The notes beneath the pieces were generated by a model. The model did not search any database, was not told the DNA's origin, and worked only from the letters and a program-made list of their open reading frames with translations. Below, piece after piece: positions 2,481 to 31,115 of a stretch of DNA of 31,115 nt (the stretch's first letter is position 1; each line of letters begins with the position of its first letter). The stretch covers positions 1 to 31,115 of IMG/VR virus record IMGVR_UViG_3300020478_001125; one strand, 5' to 3'. The position numbers and the translations under genes are program-made. The DNA is from a virus.

Positions 2481-3719
2481 ATGATTAATATACATTTCAA
2501 CAGACGTGAGTTTATGAAGATTGGCGCCATCGGAGCCGGTATGTCTTCGATGGGACTCAATGACGCTAATGCACAATCTTTACCAACCAGCGATAAGTCA
2601 GTAGTCTGGGTTTGGCTAGGTGGAGGCGCTACTCAGGTTGAAACATTTGACCCCAAGCCTATGGCTCCTTCGGAGTTTAGGGGTGTTAATGGTTCAGTGA
2701 TGACTAATGGCGATTTTCTTATTGGCGCCGACTTCATGCAGTTGTCAACGAGAAGCGATAAGATTTCTGTAGTGCGCTCATTCGCGCATAGAAATAGTAG
2801 CCATAGAACAGGCACACACTGGGTTATGACCGGACATAACTCAACTGACAACTCGCCCCAGTCAGTACAACAGGAGCCGTCCTATGGTTCGATTGTTTCA
2901 TCTCTATACGGGGCTAACCACCCCCTATCTGGTATGCCCTCATATGTTAGAGTCAACGGCATTAGCTTTGATGGGCCTTCGTGGTTAGGTGGTCAGTACA
3001 AGCCTTACGAAGCTAGCGGTGAAGGCGTGGCTAACCTGAAGTCTAGAGTTAAGAGCGACCGTTTCTCTGACCGTAGAGATTTAGTTGGAGGTCTTGACAA
3101 TCTTAAGCTAACCAACGAATTGGAAACTTGGGGAGACCTCAGAAAACAGTCATACGGCCTTCTTTTAGGCAAAGCTAGTGAAGCATTTGATGTTAAGAAA
3201 GAACCTGAAGCTATCAGAAACAGATATGGTAAAGGTATTGGAGAGCAAATGCTCTTGGCGCGTCGTCTTGTGGAGAACGGCACAAAGTTTGTAACTATTC
3301 ACTATGGTGGATGGGACATGCATGGTAATATTTCCAAGTCCCTCAAAGGAAGAGTGCCTCCACTTGACCACGCCCTTTCGACATTCATTGATGATGTTAA
3401 CGAAAAAGGAATGAACAAGGATGTTTTACTTGTCGTTACTGGCGAGTTTGGGCGCACTTATCGTATTAATAAGAATGGTGGACGAGACCACTGGCCCCAA
3501 CTAAGCACCCTAATGTTCTCCGGTGGAGATTTTGAGATGGGTAGAACCATTGGGGAGTCCACAGACAGGGCTGAGACGCCCAAGACTGACCCCTACGGAC
3601 CTCTCGACGTGACCGCAACCCTCTTCTCTCATTTTGGCATTGATTCCGCCACACAGAGGGTTGACTTTGCTGGACGACCTCGTTATTTTGTAGATGGAGA
3701 TGCGAGGTCCATTCTATGA
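2481..3719 (+). CDS. Tat-exported DUF1501 family protein
   Basis: A full-length DUF1501 protein (412 aa; the family is distantly related to the alkaline phosphatase/sulfatase superfamily and is very common in Planctomycetota). The N terminus carries a twin-arginine signal: NRREFMK at residues 7-13, a hydrophobic stretch to about residue 25 and an Ala-x-Ala cleavage site near 29-31. Family-type stretches follow: WLGGGATQVETFDP near 45-58, HYGGWDMHGN near 275-284, GEFGRT at 321-326, GGRDHWPQ at 333-340 and a C-terminal PLDVTATLFSHFGID. The predicted product is exported folded to the periplasm or cell surface. Codons look more host-like (CGT, GTT, CTT) than in neighbours. Its stop overlaps the next ATG as ATGA. 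The family's reaction is not established, so function is open; origin by host gene capture is inferred. Confidence 0.9.
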   Translation: MINIHFNRREFMKIGAIGAGMSSMGLNDANAQSLPTSDKSVVWVWLGGGATQVETFDPKPMAPSEFRGVNGSVMTNGDFLIGADFMQLSTRSDKISVVRSFAHRNSSHRTGTHWVMTGHNSTDNSPQSVQQEPSYGSIVSSLYGANHPLSGMPSYVRVNGISFDGPSWLGGQYKPYEASGEGVANLKSRVKSDRFSDRRDLVGGLDNLKLTNELETWGDLRKQSYGLLLGKASEAFDVKKEPEAIRNRYGKGIGEQMLLARRLVENGTKFVTIHYGGWDMHGNISKSLKGRVPPLDHALSTFIDDVNEKGMNKDVLLVVTGEFGRTYRINKNGGRDHWPQLSTLMFSGGDFEMGRTIGESTDRAETPKTDPYGPLDVTATLFSHFGIDSATQRVDFAGRPRYFVDGDARSIL

Positions 3720-6801: not shown

Positions 6802-6875
6802 GCCCTTGTAGCTCAGTTGGACAGAGCATCGGATTTCTAATCCGAGGGTCGCAGGTTCGAGTCCTGCCAAGGGTA
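6802..6875 (+). tRNA. tRNA-Arg (anticodon UCU)
   Basis: A complete 74-base cloverleaf: acceptor GCCCTTG/CAAGGGT with a G-U first pair, D-arm GCTC...GAGC, anticodon stem TCGGA/TCCGA with loop TTTCTAA and anticodon TCT at 6836-6838, T-arm GCAGG/CCTGC with loop TTCGAGT, discriminator A6875. CCA is not encoded. It reads AGA and, by wobble, AGG, the arginine codons that dominate most genes here, which fits the usual role of phage tRNAs in covering codons the host uses less. Confidence 0.95.
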
Positions 6876-6894
6876 CTTATAAGAAAGGTGTTAA

Positions 6895-7357: not shown

Positions 7358-7858
7358 ATGAAATTAGACCACATCGCTTATAGAGTTAAAGACCGGCATA
7401 AGGCCGCTGAGTTCTTTAAGTCGATGTTCAATTATGAGGTTGGCACTGAATTCGATGTAGAGTTTGACGATGGTTCCAAGGCAGAGTGCTATGCTCTCCT
7501 GCCTCCAGTTAAGCCAGAGGTTTTAGTCCGCGAAGGTCCAGAAATTTTTATATCTGACGGCACTTCAGGTTCTATAGTAGGCAACTGGGTTGAATCTCGT
7601 GGAGGGGTTGGTGGAATACATCACATAGCTTACAGAACCAGAAAAATAGACACTCTTGTAGAAGAGTGGAAAAATCTAGGTATTGAGTTTTTGACAGACG
7701 ACATAATAGACTGCCCAGAGGACAACTTAAGACAAATTTTCACCAAGCCTTTAGACTATCTTGGCGGCGTGATAATAGAACTTATACAAAGAGGAAGCAA
7801 AGGCTTCTGCGAGAACTCAGTTAAAAATCTTATGGAATCTACAAAGGAAGTAAAATGA
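7358..7858 (+). CDS. VOC-superfamily protein resembling one half of 4-hydroxyphenylpyruvate dioxygenase
   Basis: A vicinal-oxygen-chelate protein of 166 aa. The two beta-alpha-beta-beta-beta modules start at LDHIAYRV (H5) and IHHIAYRT (H88-H89), and VIIELIQRG gives E141, so the usual two-His, one-Glu metal site can form from H5, H89 and E141. The end, LRQIFTKPLDYLGGVIIELI followed by GFCENSVKNL, resembles the C terminus of 4-hydroxyphenylpyruvate dioxygenase (QIFTKP... EIIQR... GFGxGNFxxL), but that enzyme is about twice as long. It could be a dioxygenase, epimerase or glyoxalase-type enzyme. Its stop overlaps the aldehyde dehydrogenase start as ATGA, tying it to the lysine module. Confidence 0.8.
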   Translation: MKLDHIAYRVKDRHKAAEFFKSMFNYEVGTEFDVEFDDGSKAECYALLPPVKPEVLVREGPEIFISDGTSGSIVGNWVESRGGVGGIHHIAYRTRKIDTLVEEWKNLGIEFLTDDIIDCPEDNLRQIFTKPLDYLGGVIIELIQRGSKGFCENSVKNLMESTKEVK

Positions 7859-9357
7859 ACACTGTGCAAATCGTTCAGGGTCTCAACTATATTAGCGGTC
7901 AGTTTACAGCACCCAGCCCGGTAGACGTTGATTATTTTGACAGCATCAATCCGGCAACAGGACAGATATTAGGTTCGTTTCCTCAATCCACATCTAGCGA
8001 TATAGACTGTGCTTACGAAGTCGCTAGAGAATCTTTTGAAGGCTGGAGGCAATATAGCAGAGTAAAGCGAGCAGAGTATTTTCTTGCTCTTGCTAATCTA
8101 GTAGAAAAAAGAAGAGAAGAAATTGCCAGAGCCGTTAGTCTGGAGACGGGAAAGGTCTACAACGAGTCTATTGCTGAAGTTAATGAAGCTCTACATATGG
8201 CTCAATATGCTTTTGGTACAGGGAGGATGCCTTATGGAGAAGCAATCGCGTCTGAGCTACCTGAAAAAGACGCTTTTATGCTCAGGAAGCCCAAGGGTGT
8301 TGTTGCTATTGTTGCTCCTTTTAACTTTCCTTTCGCTATTGGAGGCTTCTGGTGTGCTGCACCGGCTCTTGTCGAAGGCAATACTGTTATTTTAAAACCA
8401 AGCGAGGACGTTCCTTGGGTTGGTCAACTTATTGCAGAACTTTATAACGAAGCAGGATTTCCTCCCGGTGTGTTTAATATGATACACGGCGACGGCAAGG
8501 TTGGCGACCAACTAATCCATAAGGATATAGACCACGTTTGCTTTACCGGCAGCGCCGACGTAGGAATGCATGTTCGTAAGGTTTGCGCCGAGAGTTGGCA
8601 CAAGACCGCTTCCTGCGAAATGGGAAGTAAGTCAGCAGTCATTATTCATGAGGATGCAAACTATGACCTCGCTCTTCCAGCCTGCCTTGCCAGTGCTTTT
8701 AAATTATCTGGTCAGCGATGTGTGTCTGCTGGTCGCCTAATTGTTCATCGGTCTCTCTACGATAAGTTTGCAAAAGACTTTGCTTCCTTGGCGTCTAGAG
8801 CCGTTACCGGAGACCCATTTGATGATAACACATTTTATGGAAGCTTAATCAACGAAACTCAACTAAAAAGAGTCGAGTCGTTTAACCAGTTGGTTAACGA
8901 CGACCCAGAGGCAGAAGTTCTACTTATGGGTTCCAGATGTCAAAACAACGGGTTGTTTCTAACCCCAACTGTATACAAAACGGAGTGGAGAGATGTACCA
9001 TACCTCAAACAAGAAGTTTTCGGCCCTCATGTGGCAATCATTCCTTACGATACAATTGATGATGCTATTAGGATTTACAACGACACTGATTATGGACTTT
9101 CTCTTGGAGTAGTAACGGAGGACTTTAAAATTGCCAGACGAATTCGTAATGAATGTGATTTTGGTCTTGGTTATTGGAACGGTGGTAGCATTGCGGCTGA
9201 GAGTCATCTGGGATTCGGAGGAGTGAAGAAGTCTGGAAACGGACAACCTAGCGCAGCCCGAACCTTTAGAGCCGTAACTCACGAAGTCGCATGGACCGTC
9301 AATCACGGAGATTCACTCAACTTCCCACAAGGCATGAAAACAGGAACTGATGAATGA
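7855..9357 (+). CDS. aldehyde dehydrogenase, probably 2-aminoadipate-6-semialdehyde (piperideine-6-carboxylate) dehydrogenase
   Basis: A full-length (500 aa) NAD(P)-dependent aldehyde dehydrogenase. Key residues are intact: N157 in APFNFPF, K181 in LKPSED, the TGSADVG cofactor loop (231-237), catalytic E255 in CEMGSKSA, nucleophile C289 in SGQRCVSAGRL and E387 in QEVFGP. The glutamate motif EMGSKS differs from the common ELGGKN. Substrate is inferred from context: the L-lysine 6-aminotransferase two genes downstream yields 2-aminoadipate 6-semialdehyde, which an enzyme like this oxidises to 2-aminoadipate. ATG overlaps the VOC stop, and its own end overlaps the next start by 8 bases. Family certain, substrate moderately likely. 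Confidence 0.9.
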   Translation: MNTVQIVQGLNYISGQFTAPSPVDVDYFDSINPATGQILGSFPQSTSSDIDCAYEVARESFEGWRQYSRVKRAEYFLALANLVEKRREEIARAVSLETGKVYNESIAEVNEALHMAQYAFGTGRMPYGEAIASELPEKDAFMLRKPKGVVAIVAPFNFPFAIGGFWCAAPALVEGNTVILKPSEDVPWVGQLIAELYNEAGFPPGVFNMIHGDGKVGDQLIHKDIDHVCFTGSADVGMHVRKVCAESWHKTASCEMGSKSAVIIHEDANYDLALPACLASAFKLSGQRCVSAGRLIVHRSLYDKFAKDFASLASRAVTGDPFDDNTFYGSLINETQLKRVESFNQLVNDDPEAEVLLMGSRCQNNGLFLTPTVYKTEWRDVPYLKQEVFGPHVAIIPYDTIDDAIRIYNDTDYGLSLGVVTEDFKIARRIRNECDFGLGYWNGGSIAAESHLGFGGVKKSGNGQPSAARTFRAVTHEVAWTVNHGDSLNFPQGMKTGTDE

Positions 9358-10156
9358 GATTCTAGTATGCAATCCTAGTTATTTCGACATCAACTACGAA
9401 ATAAACTCTTGGATGAGCGTAGATAATGGCGCGGACCCAGAAAAAGCTAGTAGACAGTGGCTTAATCTTACCAATCAACTACTAGGCTGTGGAGCCACTC
9501 TACACTACATAGAACCAGACCCTAGATTTCCAGACATGGTTTTTACAGCCAACGCTGGACTGGTTCATAGTAAAACTAGAACGGTAATTCTATCAAACTT
9601 TCGACACAAAGAAAGACAGGGAGAAAAACAGGTATTTAAAGATTGGTTTTTGAATCACGACTACAGAGTAGTTGAACTACCAGAGCATATATGTTTTGAG
9701 GGAGAGGGTGACGCTTTATTTTTAGGCGACACTCTTTTTCTCGGTTATGGGTTTAGAACAGACCTATCTGCCCATAGTATTATTGCCAACGCATTAGGGG
9801 TTGACTATGTTTCCTGTGAACTGGTCGACCCCTATTTCTATCACCTTGATACCTGCTTTATGCCAATGTCAGACAGGGTTGTTTATTTCAAGAACGCATT
9901 TTCAGATTACTCTCAAATCTCAATGATTGACAAGTTCATAGAGATAGGAACCGAACGGGGAAGGCTTGATATACTTAACGTCCACAAAGAACAGGCGGAT
10001 GAGTTTATTTGCAATAGCGTCAACGTAAAAAGCTCAATAATAACCCCAACAAGCAGTAGCCATTTGTCTTTTGCTGGCTATAAACAATATGTGTGTAATT
10101 TATCTGAGTTTATGAAATCTGGTGGGGCAGCTAAATGTCTGACTCTCAAGTTATAG
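9350..10156 (+). CDS. amidinotransferase/dimethylargininase-fold hydrolase
   Basis: A 268-aa member of the guanidino-group modifying superfamily (arginine deiminase, DDAH, glycine amidinotransferase). Visible marks: FPDMVFTANAGLV (60-72), CFEGEGDALF (115-124) with the substrate-binding acids, YHLDTCF (164-170) with catalytic H165, and the C-terminal SGGAAKCLTLKL with nucleophile C263. The length fits the DDAH-like branch rather than the 400-aa arginine deiminases. Likely products are citrulline or ornithine from arginine derivatives; which one cannot be told. It is wedged between the aldehyde dehydrogenase and lysine aminotransferase genes with overlaps on both sides, so it is part of the same translational unit. 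Confidence 0.85.
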   Translation: MNEILVCNPSYFDINYEINSWMSVDNGADPEKASRQWLNLTNQLLGCGATLHYIEPDPRFPDMVFTANAGLVHSKTRTVILSNFRHKERQGEKQVFKDWFLNHDYRVVELPEHICFEGEGDALFLGDTLFLGYGFRTDLSAHSIIANALGVDYVSCELVDPYFYHLDTCFMPMSDRVVYFKNAFSDYSQISMIDKFIEIGTERGRLDILNVHKEQADEFICNSVNVKSSIITPTSSSHLSFAGYKQYVCNLSEFMKSGGAAKCLTLKL

Positions 10157-11343
10157 AAATATTAAAAAATCATATATTGGTTGACGGATTCCATGTGGTC
10201 GTTGACCAAACCAACAGTCTGGGTTCTTATGTAGCCGACTTAAATACAGGCAAGAAGTACCTCGACTGCTACTCACAATTTGCGAGCCAACCGTTGGGCT
10301 GGAAGCACTCTGCTCTAATTAAAGCTCAGATAGAAATGGGAATTGTCGGCAAAGTAAAAATAGCTAACAGCGATATGTACTCAGAAGAATATGCAGAATT
10401 TGTTGAAGCTTTTTCTGACATTACGCCCGACTTTGATTATTATTTCTTTATAGATGGAGGTGCTTTGGGGGTAGAGAATGCGCTTAAAGCTGCGTTTGAT
10501 TGGAAAGCCAAGAAGCTAGGATACACTCACACTGTTGACATAAATAACATGGACGTGTTTCATTTAAAGAATGCCTTCCATGGAAGAACAGGCTACACAC
10601 TGTCGCTGACCAACACAACACCAGAAAAGACATCGCTTTTTCCCAAGTTTAGATGGACTACAGTAGAACCTGACTGGGAAGACATTGAAAAAAGAATGCA
10701 TGATGAGGTAGCTGCAATTATTATAGAACCTATTCAGGGCGAGGGCGGGGACAACCATTTTCCTCTAGAGTTTTTCAAGAACCTAAGACGTATAGCAGAT
10801 GAACGAGATTGTCTTCTTATCTTTGATGAAGTTCAAACTGGTCTGGGGCTTACGGGCAAGATGTGGGCCTACGAACATTTTGATGTTGTTCCAGACATGA
10901 TGTGCTTTGGTAAAAAGACTCAGGTGTGTGGTTTTTGTTCGACAAAGAGGATAGACGAGGTAGAATATAATGTTTTCAATACTTCCGGTCGTATTAATTC
11001 TACTTGGGGCGGCAATATTGTGGATATGGTTAGATTCCAATATATCGTAGAAGCAATAAAAGAACATAATCTGGTTGAAAACGCCCGAGATGTAGGTCAG
11101 CATCTTACTTGGGAGTTAATGAAACTTCCACTCATAGATAACGTGAGAGGAAGAGGTTTAATGATAGCATTTGATTTACCAGATGAACAGACTCGCGACA
11201 CCATGATGTCGCTCTTACAGGAAAACATGCTAGCGCTTAAGTGTGGAATTCGCTCAATTCGATTGAGACCACCTCTAACATTTTCCTTAGAGGACGCTGA
11301 CTCAGCAAGGAATTTTATCTATGAGGCCATCACAAAGCTATGA
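10135..11343 (+). CDS. lat: L-lysine 6-aminotransferase (lysine epsilon-aminotransferase)
   Basis: A class III, PLP-dependent aminotransferase of 402 aa. The stretch CFGKKTQVCGF (257-267), with Schiff-base K260, is a signature of lysine epsilon-aminotransferase rather than ornithine aminotransferase, and other LAT-like stretches include ILVDGFHVVVD (14-24), HLKNAFHGRTGYTLSLTNT (143-161), IEPIQGEGGDNHF (197-209), IFDEVQTGLGLTG (229-241) and RINSTWGGN (286-294). It moves the 6-amino group of lysine to 2-oxoglutarate, giving 2-aminoadipate semialdehyde (cyclising to piperideine-6-carboxylate). The aldehyde dehydrogenase at 7855 would complete the route to 2-aminoadipate. It overlaps the preceding gene by 22 bases and the next as ATGA. 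Confidence 0.9.
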   Translation: MSDSQVIEILKNHILVDGFHVVVDQTNSLGSYVADLNTGKKYLDCYSQFASQPLGWKHSALIKAQIEMGIVGKVKIANSDMYSEEYAEFVEAFSDITPDFDYYFFIDGGALGVENALKAAFDWKAKKLGYTHTVDINNMDVFHLKNAFHGRTGYTLSLTNTTPEKTSLFPKFRWTTVEPDWEDIEKRMHDEVAAIIIEPIQGEGGDNHFPLEFFKNLRRIADERDCLLIFDEVQTGLGLTGKMWAYEHFDVVPDMMCFGKKTQVCGFCSTKRIDEVEYNVFNTSGRINSTWGGNIVDMVRFQYIVEAIKEHNLVENARDVGQHLTWELMKLPLIDNVRGRGLMIAFDLPDEQTRDTMMSLLQENMLALKCGIRSIRLRPPLTFSLEDADSARNFIYEAITKL

Positions 11344-12182
11344 ATATACAAAACGTAGGAATAATAGGGCAGGGGTTTGTTGGAAGCGCTCTAAGAGAAA
11401 TGTTTTCCAAACACTATAAGGTCTACACCTACGACAAAGCTCACAAAGATTTATCAACCCATAAAAACGTGGGGGAGATGTCTAGACGCTGCGAAGTTGT
11501 TTTTGTCTGCGTTCCCACTCCAATGAGGGAGGACGGTTCTTGTGATATATCAATTGTTAAGGATGTTGTGATTCAGGCTTGTAGCACTGGAAGACGCAAT
11601 ATCATTGCCGTTAAGTCAACCATTCCGCCTAACACAACAAAGGCTTTGCAGACACTATGCCAAGACTCACAGATAGTCTTTAATCCAGAGTTTTTACTTG
11701 AAAGAAACGCCGAAGATGACTTCAGGAATACAAGCAGGGTAATTCTGGGAGGCCCAAGACCAGCAACAACGAGGTTAAAATGGTTTTATGCCAATGTTTT
11801 TCCTAATGCCCAAATCATAAAAACAGATTCTACCGTAGCTGAAATGGTAAAATATTTAACAAATTCTTTTTTGGCGGTAAAGGTTTCTTTTGCCAATGAG
11901 ATATATAATATATGTGAAAGCTTGGATATAGATTACGACAAAGTTGTTGAGTACTCTCTTTATGATGAGAGACTAGGCCAAACCCATTGGTCTGTACCCG
12001 GACCAGACGGACATTATGGTTTTGGCGGTAGTTGTTTTCCAAAAGACATTAATGCTCTTATGCATCTGGCACAAACATTGTGCATTAAGGCAAACACTAT
12101 AAACGGTGCTTGGAATACCAATCTTATGACAAGACCTGAAAAAGACTGGGAGAAGCTTAAGGGAAGGGCTGTCAGTGAATAA
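11340..12182 (+). CDS. UDP-glucose/GDP-mannose dehydrogenase family protein lacking the C-terminal domain
   Basis: A nucleotide-sugar 6-dehydrogenase with a Rossmann start (NVGIIGQGFVGS, residues 5-16), CVPTPM (57-62), KSTIPPNTT (92-100), NPEFLLERNAEDDF (115-128), the helix AEMVKYLTNSF (167-177) with K171, and the active-site GFGGSCFPKD (227-236) with nucleophile C232. Family members oxidise UDP-glucose or similar to the uronic acid. They are usually 390-450 aa; this one stops at 280, missing the C-terminal nucleotide-sugar-binding domain, and the next gene starts at once with no trace of it. Similar short forms may exist in phages; I am not certain. Substrate unknown. It opens the glycan cassette. 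Confidence 0.85.
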   Translation: MNIQNVGIIGQGFVGSALREMFSKHYKVYTYDKAHKDLSTHKNVGEMSRRCEVVFVCVPTPMREDGSCDISIVKDVVIQACSTGRRNIIAVKSTIPPNTTKALQTLCQDSQIVFNPEFLLERNAEDDFRNTSRVILGGPRPATTRLKWFYANVFPNAQIIKTDSTVAEMVKYLTNSFLAVKVSFANEIYNICESLDIDYDKVVEYSLYDERLGQTHWSVPGPDGHYGFGGSCFPKDINALMHLAQTLCIKANTINGAWNTNLMTRPEKDWEKLKGRAVSE

Positions 12183-23621: not shown

Positions 23622-23657
23622 GGACTTTCTAACGGTTAATGCCTTATGGAAAGGTCC
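23622..23657 (+). promoter_or_regulatory. hairpin that could cover the protease ribosome site
   Basis: GGACTTTC (23622-23629) can pair with GAAAGGTCC (23649-23657) with a single G bulge. The AAAGG at 23650-23654, the likely ribosome site for ATG 23664, lies in the 3' arm, so the fold could hold back translation. Confidence 0.35.
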
Positions 23658-23663
23658 AGTGTA

Positions 23664-25697
23664 ATGAAAAAATTATTATGTGCTATCGCCCTTGTTCTAG
23701 GGTGTATGATAACCACAGCAGAAGCTAAGCCACTAACAATGGACGAAGCTTTAGAGGCTGTATGCCGAGTAAGCACTAGCGGTGCTTACGGAAGCGGCAC
23801 GGTGTTTGCAGAAGATGAAGATAAATACTACGTCTTGACAAACGGTCACGTCGTTGGCCGCTCCTCAAGAGGCCATGTAGAATTTTTCCAAGATGGGTAT
23901 AAGTCCGCAAGAATTCCATTCAAAACTGAGTATGCGGCCTATAGAGAAGGAACAGCGCTAGACTTGGCGGTTCTTTCTGTTAAGAAAAACTTCTTTGGTC
24001 GCTATCCGCCAAGAGTAATCCCTCTCGCACCAAAAGGCACGAGCATACAACCAAATGACTTGGTTATGGGTGGAGGGTGTCCGTCCGCACAATGGGCTTG
24101 TTATTGGAAGGGTAGAGTCAGAAGCAACACTGGCGCAGTGATAAGTTTCAATGCCGCTCCAATTGGAGGGCAGTCTGGTAGCGGAGTTCTAGTTCTTGTC
24201 AAAGACGACAAGGGAGAACTTCATAGCAGAATCGGCATCCTTCTTGCTTGGCGAGTTGGCGATGGGGCTTGGTCAGACGATGGACCCAATGACTATGGTG
24301 CTGGCCTGTCTCTAAAACAAATCTATGAAATACTAGAAGGCAACGGCAGAGACCATCCAATTGAAACCTCTCACAGTATAGTCAACGACGAGAAGCAGGC
24401 AAAAAGACCCCTAAACACTAGACCTGCTAAAGAAAGACTGAGCCGCACTTGTCCAAATTGCGGTCACAAAATCAGTGACCATGTTGTTATTCCTGAAAAG
24501 GGTGGTCTCAAAAAGACTGCCAAGGGCGAATTTATGTTTTGTCCAGAAATTAAATTTGCTGATGGTGGAGTGGCAGACACGGCTCGTTACTACGGGGGGA
24601 TAAGAGTTGGAGAATTGTACGAGGGCAACGGATTGTTTCCTTGGTGTCCTCTAAACCCATGCCCGCCCCCACGCAATCCTCCACAACCGCCCACAAACCC
24701 TCCTGATGGTGGCGGAAATGGTGGAGGAGGCGGATTTAATCCGTGGCCGGGAAGACCAGACCCCGGAACCCCTGAACCACCAGTAGACCCTCCTATTGAT
24801 TTCAGCAAAGAAAGACAGGAGTACCTTGACAAAATTGCGGGACTTCAAGAAAAACTTAGCAATCTTGAAGCACTATCCGAAAGCTTAAAAGCCGAGCTAT
24901 CTGGAACTACTGGAAATCTACAAAAGTCTCAGGATGAGATAAATGGCCTTAAAGATTTATTAGGACAAGTTGAAGGTCAAAAGCAAACCCTTAATTCAAG
25001 AATAGAACAGTTGTTAATTTTTGTTCAAGATAAAGAAAAAGTTATAGCAGAGCTAAAAGATGGAAGTTCTCATTATCTTGATAATATGACTAATGGCAAC
25101 GGCAATACAGTAGAAAATGTTAGCTTTACTCTAGGTGGAGCTAGCTTAGGTATGCTTGCGTTAAAATACGGCGTTCCATTCTTACTTAACAGGAGACGAA
25201 GAAAAAAGAAGAAAAGAGGAGAAGATAATGACGATTTAGATGACCGAGCGGGGTATGATATTAACGGGGGATGTGATACCCCACCACAAATCTCAGAGCC
25301 TGAAAACAAAGAGTACATTCACAGACACGAACATATTCATAAACATAGACACAAGCATGACAATGAATTTATAATGTCTCCAGACGAATGTCCTCAACCA
25401 CAAACCAGCAACGAGATTGACGATTTGCAGAAAGGACAGCACGGGTTAAATCCGGGCTTTGTTGGATACGGAGTTCCAGTGGCAACGCCGTATCATCAAC
25501 AGCCTGTTGCGGCCCATGGATTGCCTCCTCAGTTCATCAACATTCCGTTTAGCTCAAGAAAAACAGTAACTTCTGAGCAAATCATGACGGTAATTGGTGA
25601 GCTAACTAACGAGTATCAAAACGACCAAACCATGACAATGGGTCAGATTGATACCCTTATCCGTCAGAGACTTAAAGAAAAATTTAATATAGAATAA
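23664..25697 (+). CDS. secreted trypsin-like serine protease with zinc-ribbon-like, coiled-coil, membrane and His-rich parts
   Basis: A 677-aa multi-part protein. Residues 1-21 are a signal peptide (MKKLLCAIALVLGCM, cut near AEA). A trypsin-fold protease follows with H62 (TNGHVV), D100 (ALDLAVL) and S171 (GGQSGSG). Then a CPNCG ... FCPE zinc-ribbon-like stretch near 271-305, a Pro/Gly-rich linker, a coiled coil at about 380-470, one membrane helix (FTLGGASLGMLALKYGVPFL), a basic stop-transfer patch RRRRKKKK, a His-rich run and a C-terminal helical part. So the protease would face the periplasm and the tail the cytoplasm. Start 23664 suits the signal peptide; six earlier codons are in frame. 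Target unknown. Confidence 0.75.
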   Translation: MKKLLCAIALVLGCMITTAEAKPLTMDEALEAVCRVSTSGAYGSGTVFAEDEDKYYVLTNGHVVGRSSRGHVEFFQDGYKSARIPFKTEYAAYREGTALDLAVLSVKKNFFGRYPPRVIPLAPKGTSIQPNDLVMGGGCPSAQWACYWKGRVRSNTGAVISFNAAPIGGQSGSGVLVLVKDDKGELHSRIGILLAWRVGDGAWSDDGPNDYGAGLSLKQIYEILEGNGRDHPIETSHSIVNDEKQAKRPLNTRPAKERLSRTCPNCGHKISDHVVIPEKGGLKKTAKGEFMFCPEIKFADGGVADTARYYGGIRVGELYEGNGLFPWCPLNPCPPPRNPPQPPTNPPDGGGNGGGGGFNPWPGRPDPGTPEPPVDPPIDFSKERQEYLDKIAGLQEKLSNLEALSESLKAELSGTTGNLQKSQDEINGLKDLLGQVEGQKQTLNSRIEQLLIFVQDKEKVIAELKDGSSHYLDNMTNGNGNTVENVSFTLGGASLGMLALKYGVPFLLNRRRRKKKKRGEDNDDLDDRAGYDINGGCDTPPQISEPENKEYIHRHEHIHKHRHKHDNEFIMSPDECPQPQTSNEIDDLQKGQHGLNPGFVGYGVPVATPYHQQPVAAHGLPPQFINIPFSSRKTVTSEQIMTVIGELTNEYQNDQTMTMGQIDTLIRQRLKEKFNIE

Positions 25698-25707
25698 GGA
25701 GATAATT

Positions 25708-26505
25708 ATGTCAGAAAATCTCATCATCCCTACACACGACGCAATTTTGCCGTACATGTACAAGGGCGTGAAGTGGGCTATTCCTAATGTTGGCGACAAC
25801 AAGGAAACCCACAACTTAGCAATGGCTAGACTTTTCGAAAAGGTTGGCGAGCATCTACAGGCTTTTTCAGTACGTACTGATTGCTTTGTTCCCGGCCCGC
25901 CAACGCTTGGCGCTGTAAAGCATCATCACAATATGTTCGTTCGTCTGTGCAACCTGATTGATACGAACACAAAGCGTGACAACATGGAGAGACTTGAGGC
26001 GCATCATATCAGCCATGAGAGACGTGCTTTTAAGATTTACCCAATTCGATACTTCGATGTTAAGAATGACTACTGTCGTCGATGGGTTGAATTGTGTCTT
26101 CAGGGCTTGAGCAACATTGCCCAGCTAAGTGAAAACACTTGGGGCAACGATTGGTCAGAAGCTACAGCGACTGAAATGAAGAAGCTGTTCCGTGAAGGGT
26201 ACAGGCTTATGTGCGTGGAACTTTTCAAGGTTCCCGTGGCAACCGCAGAGAAGGTCTTTGCCGAAGACGGTACTGCATTCTTCCTAACCTCTGAAGATTT
26301 TGCCAACTATGACACTAGCCACATTCCTACTATCGAGTGGATTAAGCATCCTGCTCTTGGTAGTGAATTTACTGAAGACGAGCTTCGACCGATTTCAACC
26401 AACAACGTTCCGGTTGCTCCCGGTGTAGCAGAGAATGACCCCAATTCACCAAATCGTGTACTCGAAAGAGACATGCAGGGCAACAGTGGAGAGGTCATTG
26501 AGTAA
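25708..26505 (+). CDS. abundant unknown protein between two proteases
   Basis: I do not recognise this 265-aa family. It is soluble, His/Asn/Arg rich and mostly helical by eye, with stretches such as KHHHNMFVRLCNLIDTNT and HHISHERRAFKIYPIRYF, and ends in a flexible acidic tail. AAGGAG at 25697-25702 precedes the ATG and a strong terminator follows. Arginine codons include many CGT, unlike the AGA-heavy neighbours, which suggests high expression. It could be a virion protein, or the substrate or partner of the flanking proteases; nothing in the sequence decides. Confidence 0.65.
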   Translation: MSENLIIPTHDAILPYMYKGVKWAIPNVGDNKETHNLAMARLFEKVGEHLQAFSVRTDCFVPGPPTLGAVKHHHNMFVRLCNLIDTNTKRDNMERLEAHHISHERRAFKIYPIRYFDVKNDYCRRWVELCLQGLSNIAQLSENTWGNDWSEATATEMKKLFREGYRLMCVELFKVPVATAEKVFAEDGTAFFLTSEDFANYDTSHIPTIEWIKHPALGSEFTEDELRPISTNNVPVAPGVAENDPNSPNRVLERDMQGNSGEVIE

Positions 26506-26518
26506 TTAACTTTTCTTG

Positions 26519-26548
26519 GATGGCCCCCAATTCGGGGGCCATCTTTTT
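26519..26548 (+). terminator. intrinsic terminator after the 25708 gene
   Basis: A perfect 10-bp GC-rich stem pairs 26519-26528 (GATGGCCCCC) with 26534-26543 (GGGGGCCATC), loop AATTC, followed by five T at 26544-26548. Confidence 0.95.
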
Positions 26549-26573
26549 ATATCCACAGGAAGGATTCTATAAC

Positions 26574-27533
26574 ATGAAACTCTTAGCTACTATTATAACG
26601 GCTTTAATCATCTGTGCATCTCCGACCGCTATTGCGGAAGAGAAAACCTCTGTTGACACAGTTTCACAATTTTTACAGGACGTATCTGTAACGGTTAAAA
26701 CCGGAGGTCTCGGTGAAGGCTCTGGGGTGATTATTACCAGAGAGATACAGACTAAGAGAGGAAAAGAAAAAATTAACTTTATCTGGACAGCAGCCCACGT
26801 AGTAGATGGCCTTCGCTCCGAAAGAAGAATTGTAAAAGCTGGACAAACGAGAAGAGTTATTGAATTCAAAGATGCTCAAATTGTTAAGGAGCTTGTTGAG
26901 AATGGAAGACGAGTGGGTGAGCTTAAGATGGATGCAAAGGTCATAAAGTATAGCGATTCGGAAAATGGGGAAGACCTAGCCTTGTTGATGGTTAGAAAGA
27001 GGGATTTTATATCAAAAGGTGTTGAGTTTTATATCAACAAGGACAAACCGGTTTCGATTGGGACAGAGCTATATCATGTGGGAAGTTTACTCGGACAACT
27101 AGGCTCAAATTCCCAAACGCGGGGTATAATGTCACAGGTAGGGAGAGTTCTTGACCTTGGGACTGGAGATGGTGTAGTATTTGACCAAACTTCATGCCCC
27201 GGTTTTCCGGGGTCGTCTGGAGGAGGAATATTCCTCTCAGAAAAAGCTGGTCCCAACTCTGGCAAATATGTTGGAATGCTTGTCAGGGGTGCTGGAGAAA
27301 CCTTTAATTTAATAGTTCCAGTAAGACGGATGAAAAAGTACGCTGAGAAAGAAAATATCCTGTGGGCTATTGACGAAACTGCCAAAACACCAACCTTGGA
27401 AGAAATCATCTCATTGCCAATAGAAGGAGGAAGCGCCAAAACGACTGAAGGCACTAAGAAGACTGAGGATTCTGTTAAGTTTCCAACATTATTAAACATC
27501 AAAAGAGGTAGCACCAATGTTAAACGTCAATAA
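26574..27533 (+). CDS. secreted trypsin-like serine protease
   Basis: A 319-aa exported protease. Residues 1-21 are a signal peptide (MKLLATIITALIICAS, cut near AIAEE). The catalytic triad is visible as H75 in WTAAHVV, D134 in GEDLALL and S214 in PGSSGGGI. The fold is that of HtrA/DegP-type proteases, but no PDZ domain follows; the C-terminal 60 residues look disordered and Lys/Thr rich. AGGAAGG before ATG 26574 decides the start; an in-frame ATG at 26520 lies within the preceding terminator. It is the second secreted protease in 4 kb, and it overlaps the holin-like gene by 17 bases. Role unknown: virion maturation cannot be done from the periplasm, so host-envelope attack is more likely. Confidence 0.85.
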   Translation: MKLLATIITALIICASPTAIAEEKTSVDTVSQFLQDVSVTVKTGGLGEGSGVIITREIQTKRGKEKINFIWTAAHVVDGLRSERRIVKAGQTRRVIEFKDAQIVKELVENGRRVGELKMDAKVIKYSDSENGEDLALLMVRKRDFISKGVEFYINKDKPVSIGTELYHVGSLLGQLGSNSQTRGIMSQVGRVLDLGTGDGVVFDQTSCPGFPGSSGGGIFLSEKAGPNSGKYVGMLVRGAGETFNLIVPVRRMKKYAEKENILWAIDETAKTPTLEEIISLPIEGGSAKTTEGTKKTEDSVKFPTLLNIKRGSTNVKRQ

Positions 27534-29120: not shown

Positions 29121-29228
29121 ATGGGAAAAACGATAAGAAAAAAAAGTAAGCGAGATAGGAAGCGTCTCAAGAATGAAAGACGCACTAGGAATAGTAAGAA
29201 GCGCTTATATGAAGAACATCAGAAGTAG
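29121..29228 (+). CDS. possible very basic mini-protein, 35 aa
   Basis: ATG 29121 lies one base after the previous stop (coupled re-initiation is possible), and the frame runs to TAG 29226-29228. The product, beginning MGKTIRKKSKRDRKRLKNER, is almost half Lys and Arg, like the basic small protein at 5639. The ribosome site is weak and the end overlaps the deaminase gene, so I am only moderately sure it is expressed. Confidence 0.45.
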   Translation: MGKTIRKKSKRDRKRLKNERRTRNSKKRLYEEHQK

Positions 29229-29700
29229 ACCGTCTTGGGACAATTATTTCATTGGTCTCGCTCACTACGTTTCTACAAGAAGCCACGACTCCCAAACTCA
29301 AGTTGGCTGTGTAATAATTAATGGTCAGCATGAAGTTGTTGGAGTTGGGTATAACGGGTTTCCCGGCGGGGTAGATGATAGCGCCCTTCCTACCACCAGA
29401 CCGGGAAAATATCCATTTATAGTTCATGCAGAAGCCAACGCAATAAGCAACCTGATTGTTAAACAGGTCGATTGGTATACAGCTTATATTACACATTTGC
29501 CGTGCGCCACATGCGCAAAACTATTGTGGCAAAATGGCGTCCATGAGTGGTATGTTCCAAAAGGCTCCAAAGCTCACGGCCAAGTAGAAGAAGACCGATT
29601 GGTTTATGAGTTCCTGTCTAAAAATGGCCTTGAAGTCAACTTTATTGAGCCAGACCTGTCGCACCTAAATCAACTGGCGAGCAGCCTGAAAAGTTCTTAG
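29173..29700 (+). CDS. dCMP deaminase
   Basis: A typical deoxycytidylate deaminase that makes dUMP for dTMP synthesis. The N-terminal RPSWDNYFIGLAHYVSTRSH is a family hallmark, followed by VGCVIINGQHEVVGVGYNGF, zinc ligand and proton shuttle H85 and E87 in VHAEANAI, and zinc ligands C111 and C114 in LPCATCAKLL. Start 29173 has AGGAAG ten bases upstream; in-frame ATG 29209 would match the usual N terminus better but has a weaker site. It works in the same pathway as the ribonucleotide reductase at 30376. Confidence 0.9.
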   Translation: MKDALGIVRSAYMKNIRSRPSWDNYFIGLAHYVSTRSHDSQTQVGCVIINGQHEVVGVGYNGFPGGVDDSALPTTRPGKYPFIVHAEANAISNLIVKQVDWYTAYITHLPCATCAKLLWQNGVHEWYVPKGSKAHGQVEEDRLVYEFLSKNGLEVNFIEPDLSHLNQLASSLKSS

Positions 29701-29728
29701 AGTTAGTAAGAAATATAGTGTATATCTA

Positions 29729-29910
29729 TTGCTGGGTTTTATAGAGTTCAGACGCGACGGGCGCATAAATTTGCCTCCCTCCAGAAGAGCTAGAACGACA
29801 CTTATCCAGCAAGCCAATGAGCATCAAGCATCACTTGTGACCATGTTTAATTTTACTTTAGATAGGCGTTAGATACTATGTTGTGCTTGATTCATTTTCT
29901 GTGTCGTTCT
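29729..29910 (+). ncRNA. candidate pseudoknotted non-coding RNA
   Basis: The 256-base stretch 29701-29956 has no convincing gene. It holds three long complementary pairs: TTGCTGGGT (29729-29737) with ATCCAGCAA (29804-29812), nine pairs with one G-U; AGAACGACAC (29792-29801) with GTGTCGTTCT (29901-29910), ten pairs; and, inside the latter, AATGA plus ATCAAGCA (29816-29820, 29823-29830) with TGCTTGATTCATT (29884-29896), thirteen pairs with a GC bulge. The first two cross, with only two bases between their inner arms, the geometry of an H-type pseudoknot. An intrinsic terminator follows 11 bases later. I do not recognise a known RNA class; tmRNA and tRNA features are absent. Confidence 0.55.
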
Positions 29911-29921
29911 TAAAAATTACA

Positions 29922-29953
29922 GGTCCACGGCCCACCAGCCGTGGGCCTTTTTT
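29922..29953 (+). terminator. intrinsic terminator after the RNA-like region
   Basis: GGTCCACGGC (29922-29931) pairs with GCCGTGGGCC (29938-29947), ten pairs with one T-G, loop CCACCA, followed by six T. It ends three bases before the ATG of the next frame. Confidence 0.9.
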
Positions 29954-29956
29954 ATT

Positions 29957-30367
29957 ATGGCAACTAGGATAATACATAACGGACCCGGTAGGTTCAGAAA
30001 GAAGACAGCCATGGAAACCCCACCAGAAGGATTTTCCACAAGGGCCAAAGTGGTCAGGGTGGTAGATGGTGATACAGTAGATGTTATCATTAAGAGAAAG
30101 ATGAGAATTCGCCTTGAAGACTGCTGGGCGCCTGAGACACGCACCAAAGATTTAGAAGAAAAGCTTAAAGGTCTAGAAGCAAAAGATTTTGCAGAAGACC
30201 TTCTTATGGGCAAAGAGGTCATAGTATTCATACCGGGAGACCCAGAGGGAGAAATGAAAGACGTGTTCACCTTTGGTCGCGCGGTAGGCAGGGTCTTCCT
30301 TGACGGGGAGGATTTTTCGTCTATAATGGTTCGGGAAGGTCTAGCCACACAGACCAAGAATGGATAA
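29957..30367 (+). CDS. thermonuclease-like (SNase) protein
   Basis: A staphylococcal-nuclease-fold protein. The stretch VVRVVDGDTVDVIIK (32-46), IRLEDCWAPET (51-61), KGLEAKDFAEDLL (71-83) and FGRAVGRVFLDGEDF (106-120) follow the family's strand order, and residues matching the catalytic Arg (R52), Glu (E60) and second Arg (R108) seem present, so calcium-dependent cleavage of DNA or RNA is possible. At 136 aa it is of normal length. ATG 29957 sits right at the terminator's T-run with no ribosome site; in-frame ATG 30011, after AGAAAGAAG, may be the true start and would keep the whole domain. Probably helps host DNA breakdown. Confidence 0.8.
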   Translation: MATRIIHNGPGRFRKKTAMETPPEGFSTRAKVVRVVDGDTVDVIIKRKMRIRLEDCWAPETRTKDLEEKLKGLEAKDFAEDLLMGKEVIVFIPGDPEGEMKDVFTFGRAVGRVFLDGEDFSSIMVREGLATQTKNG

Positions 30368-30375
30368 TTTAAGCA

Positions 30376-31115
30376 ATGTCGGTCACAGAATTACAAAATT
30401 ACACCTTCGTTAGTAAATACGCCAGATGGATTCCTGAAAAGAAAAGGCGAGAAACTTGGAAAGAATCTGTTACCCGTGTCAGAGAAATGATGCACGAGCA
30501 ATACCCCGAAGCAAATGGAGATATTGATTGGGCATACGACCTGATGTACAAGAAGCGAGTCTTAGGCTCTCAAAGAGCGCTACAGTTTGGCGGCAAACCC
30601 ATCTTTAAACACCACGCCAGAGTATACAACTGTATAGCTTCATATATTGATAGGCCAAGATTTTTTCAAGAATGTATGTACCTACTTCTTTGCGGTTGTG
30701 GGGTAGGGTTTTCAGTACAAAAACACCACGTAGCCAAACTGCCAGAGTTGGTATACAGAAAAGATGGAACCAAGAAGTTCACTATTCCTGATACGATAGA
30801 GGGATGGTCTGATGCTATTGGCGTTTTAGTTTGCAGCTACTTTGATAAATGCGACCTGTTTTCAGAGTACTCTGGGAAAAACGTCACTTTTGATTTTTCT
30901 AAAATTAGACCTGCTGGCGCGTATCTTAGTTCGAGTTCAGGAAAGGCTCCCGGCCCAGAGCCTCTTAAAAAAGCCCTAACGAATATTAAAAAAGTCCTAG
31001 ACAAGGCTCTAAAGAACTCGGAATTTTCTACCAGAAAACTGAGACCTATAGATGTCTACGATGTTGTTATGCATGCTGCTGACGCTGTTATTTCTGGCGG
31101 GGTACGCAGAAGTGC
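30376..31115 (+). CDS. nrdJ: adenosylcobalamin-dependent (class II) ribonucleotide reductase, N-terminal part
   Basis: The frame starts at ATG 30376 and stays open to the window edge (246 codons). It resembles the monomeric class II ribonucleoside-triphosphate reductases: FVSKYARWIPEKKRRETWKE at 11-30, then VYNCIASYIDRPRFFQECMY with first active-site cysteine C86, the glycine-rich LLCGCGVGFSVQ (104-115) and, at the very end, SGGVRRS. These enzymes make dNTPs from NTPs with vitamin B12 and without an oxygen-dependent partner, and are frequent in marine phages. The later cysteines and radical-site residues lie outside the window, so completeness cannot be judged. ATG is 9 bases after the nuclease stop. 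Confidence 0.85.
   Translation, partial: MSVTELQNYTFVSKYARWIPEKKRRETWKESVTRVREMMHEQYPEANGDIDWAYDLMYKKRVLGSQRALQFGGKPIFKHHARVYNCIASYIDRPRFFQECMYLLLCGCGVGFSVQKHHVAKLPELVYRKDGTKKFTIPDTIEGWSDAIGVLVCSYFDKCDLFSEYSGKNVTFDFSKIRPAGAYLSSSSGKAPGPEPLKKALTNIKKVLDKALKNSEFSTRKLRPIDVYDVVMHAADAVISGGVRRS

Follow-up and report, generated by a model that had tools for sequence, protein, structure and literature searches.

Phages must quickly raise their dNTP supply. The adenosylcobalamin riboswitch is located upstream of the ribonucleotide reductase (RNR) genes nrdJ or nrdAB and governs both RNR classes in some bacteria, while the 2'-deoxyguanosine riboswitch class is built on the three-way junction of the purine riboswitches. 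The T4 gene 32 messenger, which serves phage replication, has an H-type pseudoknot at the 5' end of its leader; this pseudoknot is much smaller than the RNA described below, acts on translation and has no terminator. To our knowledge, no phage RNA has been described as controlling phage RNR genes. RNR genes figure prominently in viral genomes, and the RNR classes of phages and their relation to cobalamin have been discussed (PMC6370689), with no leader RNA of a phage RNR among the passages of that article that were searched; a short literature search likewise revealed no description of a phage RNA controlling RNR genes. The 2'-deoxyguanosine riboswitch is found upstream of ribonucleotide reductase (PMC8872408) and, as stated in PMC11251524, terminates transcription upon ligand binding. 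The manA and wcaG motifs are candidate regulatory RNAs from marine metagenomes and T4-like phages, which are located upstream of metabolic genes (PMC2864571); in its main text, this report on 104 motifs names no RNR motif. Here, we describe a family of marine phages carrying a pseudoknot RNA that is absent from Rfam at the start of their genes for DNA building blocks, which most likely exerts a riboswitch-like control on the reading of these genes.

Fold of the RNA and its surroundings

The DNA analysed (31,115 nt, referred to as the window) originates from a 31-kb virus record of IMG/VR. On its plus strand, the RNA is preceded by a gene of the dCMP deaminase family (29173-29700; PF00383) and followed by a gene for a staphylococcal-nuclease-like protein (30012-30367) and the N-terminal part of a class II RNR (30376-31113; RNR-II_ins_dom, RNR_Alpha), the gene of which is incomplete, since it runs off the end of the record. 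The open reading frame of the nuclease-like protein already opens at 29957, and its start is inferred to be the ATG at 30012, which follows a purine-rich stretch. The RNA had been placed in a gene-free gap, and indeed no open reading frame of at least 60 aa exists on the plus strand between 29701 and 29956.

Elsewhere, the window harbors a run of metabolic genes that is unusual in a phage, i.e. aldehyde dehydrogenase, a DDAH-like hydrolase and a class III aminotransferase (7855-12182), as well as two proteins (683 and 337 aa) that contain trypsin-like peptidase domains and flank a protein without an assigned family (23646-27533). The lone tRNA gene of the record encodes a tRNA-Arg (anticodon TCT; 6802-6876), and a tRNA is likewise present in L113, one of the homologous contigs described below. 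An RIIB-like protein (PHROG 609) encoded at 324-1196 suggests a T4-like large phage.

The RNA consists of two crossing helices, S1 with 9 bp including one G-U pair (29729-29737 with 29804-29812) and S2 with 10 bp (29792-29801 with 29901-29910), the 3' arm of S1 beginning two bases past the 5' arm of S2 (joint at 29802-29803). S3 sits in the third loop and comprises 5 + 8 bp, formed by 29816-29820 and 29823-29830 with 29884-29896, the 5' arm (29816-29830) being interrupted by a 2-nt bulge (29821-29822). An intrinsic terminator with an 11-bp hairpin (29921-29948) and a T-run extending to 29954 follows. Sequence and pairing checks located S1, S2, S3, the 2-nt joint and the terminator where the original prediction had put them. 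The element is somewhat larger than first reported, since it takes in the terminator, a fourth stem, P2, which was found within loop 1 (AGTTC, 29745-29749, with GAGCT, 29787-29791), and, before S1, a -10-like box (29721-29726).

The fold energy of the single sequence is low (z = -2.76) and was not reached in any of 200 shuffles. When G-U pairs were allowed, however, crossing stems of at least 9 and at least 10 bp with a joint of at most 3 nt appeared in 20 of 400 dinucleotide shuffles (5%) and also in 12 other 255-nt segments of the same 31-kb record. The initial assessment of chance formation as unlikely was therefore overstated for a single sequence, and because crossing stems of this size are not rare by chance, comparative evidence is needed.

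Homologues, covariation and conserved signals

Using the upstream deaminase as query, we obtained nine close relatives that also possess the RNA and together with the window represent six distinct RNA sequences. Searches with a deaminase profile, an RNR profile and sequences yielded 13 distant members (L113, L126, L132, L134, L194, L211, L212, L215, L222, L225, L226, L231 and L236; alignment A5). A covariance model derived from A5, which covers S2, S3 and P2 and includes neither S1 nor the window, matches the window with 57.2 bits (E 4.5e-11) and gave an E of 1.7e-12 on the window's own record. In addition, a scan that was blind to neighboring genes was performed with a DNA pattern consisting only of the promoter box and an S1 arm. 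Complete RNAs with at least 91 bits were found in 33 of the 69 contigs matched and one partial copy in L280; the remaining contigs scored below 19 bits, and the scan thus doubles as a specificity control. Three divergent members were recognized by model and eye (L171, 37 bits; L204, 19.5 bits; L240, 15.7 bits), the membership of the latter two resting on manual pairing (L204: S1 AGATCAGAG/CTCTGATTT and S2 AAAGCGGCAC/GTGCCGCTTT; L240: S1 CACAGAG/CTCTGTG and S3 CCGGTAGCG/CGCTACCGG). By our count, the RNA is present in about 50 IMG/VR contigs, and model searches of whole records identified one clear copy per record, solely at RNR. A blastn search against cultured phages gave no match, so that the occurrence of the RNA in phages only, as found so far, rests on IMG/VR, without a proper search of bacterial genomes.

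Several candidates were not included. L090 and L298 (18.9 bits) are chance or unproven matches, L323-L329, which show the DNA pattern of S2a and S1b outside the family, lack a model match and are thus attributed to chance, and a 14-mer scan of genome contigs was too unspecific for use. Upstream of nrdJ in L127, L129 and L130, the promoter and the loop-1 sequence are kept and S2 and S3 are lost; the 62-nt model matches in L129 and L130 (E 0.04 and 0.31) look like internally deleted leaders.

Already among the close relatives, compensatory changes occur in S1 (G-C to A-U at 29731/29810 in L002) and in S3 (U-A to C-G at 29818/29894). Among more distant sequences, the S1 arms are exchanged as pairs, e.g. 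TTGCTGG/CCAGCAA in the window, TTGTCGA/TCGACAA in L134, TTGTTGGGG/CCTCAACAA in L126 and GGTTGGGA/TCTCAACC in L113. In A5 (n = 13), double changes were observed at 20 of 31 pairs, a value that none of 500 shuffles reached. The larger alignment A6 contains 33 distinct sequences fitted to S2, S3 and P2, S1 never being part of the model. Standard pairs account for 93.5% of its paired cells, changes on both sides affect 23 of 31 pairs (0/500 shuffles), and 119 cells show compensatory changes compared to 36.7 ± 5.6 in shuffles; the covariation score amounts to 0.404 versus 0.04-0.11 in slid controls, in which relatedness is kept. For S1 alone, 92.9% of the cells are paired, with 65 double changes compared to 26 in shuffles. 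S2 is paired in 98.5% of the cells, also with double changes, S3 shows double changes at all seven modelled pairs, and P2, in which 80.6% of the cells are paired, is the weakest of the helices. Compensatory changes in homologues, the absence of which would have refuted the original prediction, are accordingly present in all three of its stems. Since the crossing helices S1 and S2 are each supported by covariation, the defining feature of an H-type pseudoknot is given, and from the homologues we conclude that a structured RNA of this type exists.

The covariation extends to the window-type terminator (29921-29954) in the relatives. The -10-like box reads TATATC in the window, where it is part of a 21-mer that is invariant in near relatives, and TATAAT within GTGTATAAT in nearly all distant homologues. 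Because S1 begins a few bases past GTGTATAAT in the distant members, we infer that transcription probably starts at about the first base or bases of S1. Since none of the records tested contains TAGTGTATAATA more than once, the box does not serve these phages as a general promoter. In most members, a U-run directly follows the 3' arm of S2, and separate terminator hairpins are present where this U-run is missing, i.e. in the window type, L126 and L132. A clear terminator, be it a U-run or a hairpin, is absent in L215 (and its copy L319) and in L240. As nearly all members possess a terminator, its function is conserved and its form is not. Counted from S1 through the last base of S2, the RNAs measure 126-184 nt. 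Conserved unpaired positions include the box, a UA in loop 1, a GC after S1b (97%), a GC before S3, and a U and an A of the motif UAGUUUAA in the S3 loop. No more than about 14 unpaired columns reach a conservation of 85%, mainly at the promoter and the junctions. A pairing of the A/U-rich loop-1 strand UUUAAAG with UAGUUUAA was considered and rejected, as it fails in L126, L134, L290 and the window.

That the RNA belongs to no known class, as had been supposed, was corroborated by Rfam 15 (4227 families), in which neither the window nor divergent members have a match. At the gathering threshold, only the tRNA at 6802 was detected in the window and only a tRNA in L113, L126, L132 and L134, and permissive scans returned chance-level matches only. 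It is possible that the RNA already stands unnamed in a catalogue of viral structured RNAs; we located no such catalogue.

Position upstream of two classes of ribonucleotide reductase

All members found lie upstream of an RNR operon, which is of two kinds, class II nrdJ or class Ia nrdA-nrdB. In the class II group, the deaminase gene is followed by the RNA, (a nuclease-like gene) and nrdJ. In the class Ia group, a context that was never searched for, the RNA is located 16-61 nt upstream of nrdA, followed by nrdB; NrdA was identified by its ATP cone and by NF005544 (1073 bits, above the cut-off), and the genes past nrdB resemble those for dUTPase and a PhoH-like protein. A location upstream of the same function in different contexts, as expected for a cis-regulatory leader, is hence given for class II and class Ia, without proof that the two contexts arose separately. 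One or two small genes separate the RNA from RNR in the window, L113, L171 and L204 types. A small lysine-rich protein is encoded between RNA and nrdJ in L171 (about 3282-3500) and L204 (about 3220-3500); the L171 copy has no match to a Pfam family. The RNA is missing from many relatives (among L097-L131) that have retained promoter box and RNR, from which we conclude that it is an optional regulator that is not needed for expression.

Of seven class Ia contigs tested, six (L295, L268, L276, L254, L290 and L287) retain a stub of the deaminase C-terminus of about 20-25 codons just before the RNA (130 nt). This indicates that promoter and RNA stayed in place while the genes on both sides were exchanged or lost. 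Judging from these sequences, the RNA appears to have been retained through an exchange of the RNR class, in which the new gene was again an RNR; the direction is not established. L295 carries a class Ia RNA that shares 83% identity with the class II RNA of L267 and is nearer to it than to the other class Ia RNAs, although the NrdA proteins of L295 and L287 are 91% identical. These identities suggest recombination at the border between RNA and RNR, with the reservation that the RNA tree still allows for a single class Ia clade (AU p = 0.25). Two independent class Ia gains, although the tree shows four changes, were not accepted for the same reason.

The same observations bear on the possibility that the RNA is a free-standing small RNA gene that adjoins RNR by position only and whose product targets RNAs or proteins of host or phage in trans. 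Such a gene would have its own promoter and terminator, in agreement with the promoter-like box, the terminator and the discrete transcript of about 130-185 nt predicted here, and could persist with its promoter while both neighboring genes changed; small genes between RNA and RNR would also be tolerated. We nevertheless regard it as rather unlikely, because all members, even those found blind to their neighbors, precede RNR in both contexts, no clear copy was found elsewhere in the whole-record searches, and the few conserved unpaired columns do not form a long single-stranded guide-like segment.

Proposed function and comparison with known RNAs

We propose that the RNA is a new phage leader, an attenuator or candidate riboswitch, that controls the RNR operon, and estimate the probability of this reading at about 60%. 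The RNA itself, its fold and covariation, the -10-like box, the terminator and the position before RNR are observed, whereas the start site, attenuation and a ligand are inferred. Of the three roles originally suggested, a regulatory RNA fits best, with RNR operons as the target, and we found no indication of an anti-defence RNA or of a ribozyme. According to the proposed mechanism, transcription would start from the RNA's own promoter at S1, and the leader of about 130-185 nt would form the 5' end of the RNR messenger. It would fold into the S1 × S2 pseudoknot with the P2 hairpin in loop 1 and the long S3 hairpin in loop 3, and would end in an intrinsic terminator, which is formed by S2 and the U-run in most members and by a separate hairpin in the window type. 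By default, formation of the fold would stop transcription before RNR; a signal disturbing the fold would allow read-through, and the RNR then made could supply dNTPs for phage DNA. Class II and class Ia RNR are presumed to share the input signal. Because the RNA serves a cobalamin and a cobalamin-independent RNR, a nucleotide or another shared signal is likelier than cobalamin or iron.

An intrinsic terminator between aptamer and gene, as expected for an attenuating riboswitch, is present with the exceptions of L215 and L240. However, attenuation has its weak point in the lack of a conserved alternative fold that undoes S2: by eye, no mutually exclusive anti-terminator fold is conserved across clades, and a strand exchange between S1a-S2a and S1b-S2b, likewise assessed by eye, is possible in the L194/L222 group only and fails in the window, L126 and L113. 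Moreover, the window-type terminator is separate from the pseudoknot, and its coupling to the latter is thus not evident. Against a leader in general stand the small genes between RNA and RNR, the many relatives without the RNA, and the absence of expression or binding data. More specifically, the RNA might represent a new phage riboswitch class that senses the (deoxy)nucleotide pool in the course of infection and sets the transcription of the phage's own RNR, with the pseudoknot stem serving as terminator stem, and that was kept through an exchange from class II to class Ia; this version is tentative and, in our estimate, falls short of an even chance.

Alternatively, the RNA could stabilize the 5' end of the RNR messenger or provide it with an autoregulatory site for protein binding in the style of T4 gene 32, S1 burying the 5' end and a phage protein possibly binding the pseudoknot. 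The beginning of S1 roughly coincides with the predicted start of the RNA, and the conserved GC after S1b as well as UAGUUUAA could be protein contacts, but the conserved terminators before RNR would defeat a pure stabilizer, and the T4 target is the start site, which is located 15-70 nt or more downstream here, so that we consider this improbable. Chance folding of an AT-rich spacer, despite the crossing stems in 5% of shuffles, is refuted by the compensatory changes in all helices, which no shuffle out of 500 reproduced.

If the RNA is an RNR leader that stays while the downstream enzyme class changes, it makes testable which signal of the infected cell starts the synthesis of phage DNA precursors. 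Should a ligand be found, it would be a rare case of a riboswitch used by a virus, with an unusual build in which pseudoknot stem and terminator stem coincide.

Regarding topology, the group I intron core (P3/P7/P8) has the strand order S1a, inner hairpin, S2a, S1b, hairpin, S2b, which the phage RNA shares. This likeness is one of topology only: the phage RNA has an uninterrupted S2, its own promoter and terminator and no split gene, and a group I intron was rejected, since no Rfam Intron_gpI match exists and the flanking genes are whole. An HDV-like ribozyme is ruled out by the topology, the inner hairpin being in the wrong interval. The phage RNA differs from the manA and wcaG motifs in its fold and genes and has no match to them in Rfam 15. 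With the T4 gene 32 leader, it has in common an H-type pseudoknot at the (predicted) 5' end of a phage messenger, but it is larger and possesses a terminator. It resembles the adenosylcobalamin riboswitch in its position at RNR genes of both classes; it differs in that no member tested matches the Rfam cobalamin family and in that one and the same RNA precedes the cobalamin-independent nrdAB in these phages. Finally, the phage RNA is distinguished from the 2'-deoxyguanosine riboswitch by its H-type pseudoknot, the lack of an Rfam match and of an identified ligand. As leaders of dNTP-synthesis genes with transcription termination as output, which in the phage RNA is still a prediction, the two would nevertheless correspond, and by this analogy the 2'-deoxyguanosine riboswitch is the nearest precedent in function.
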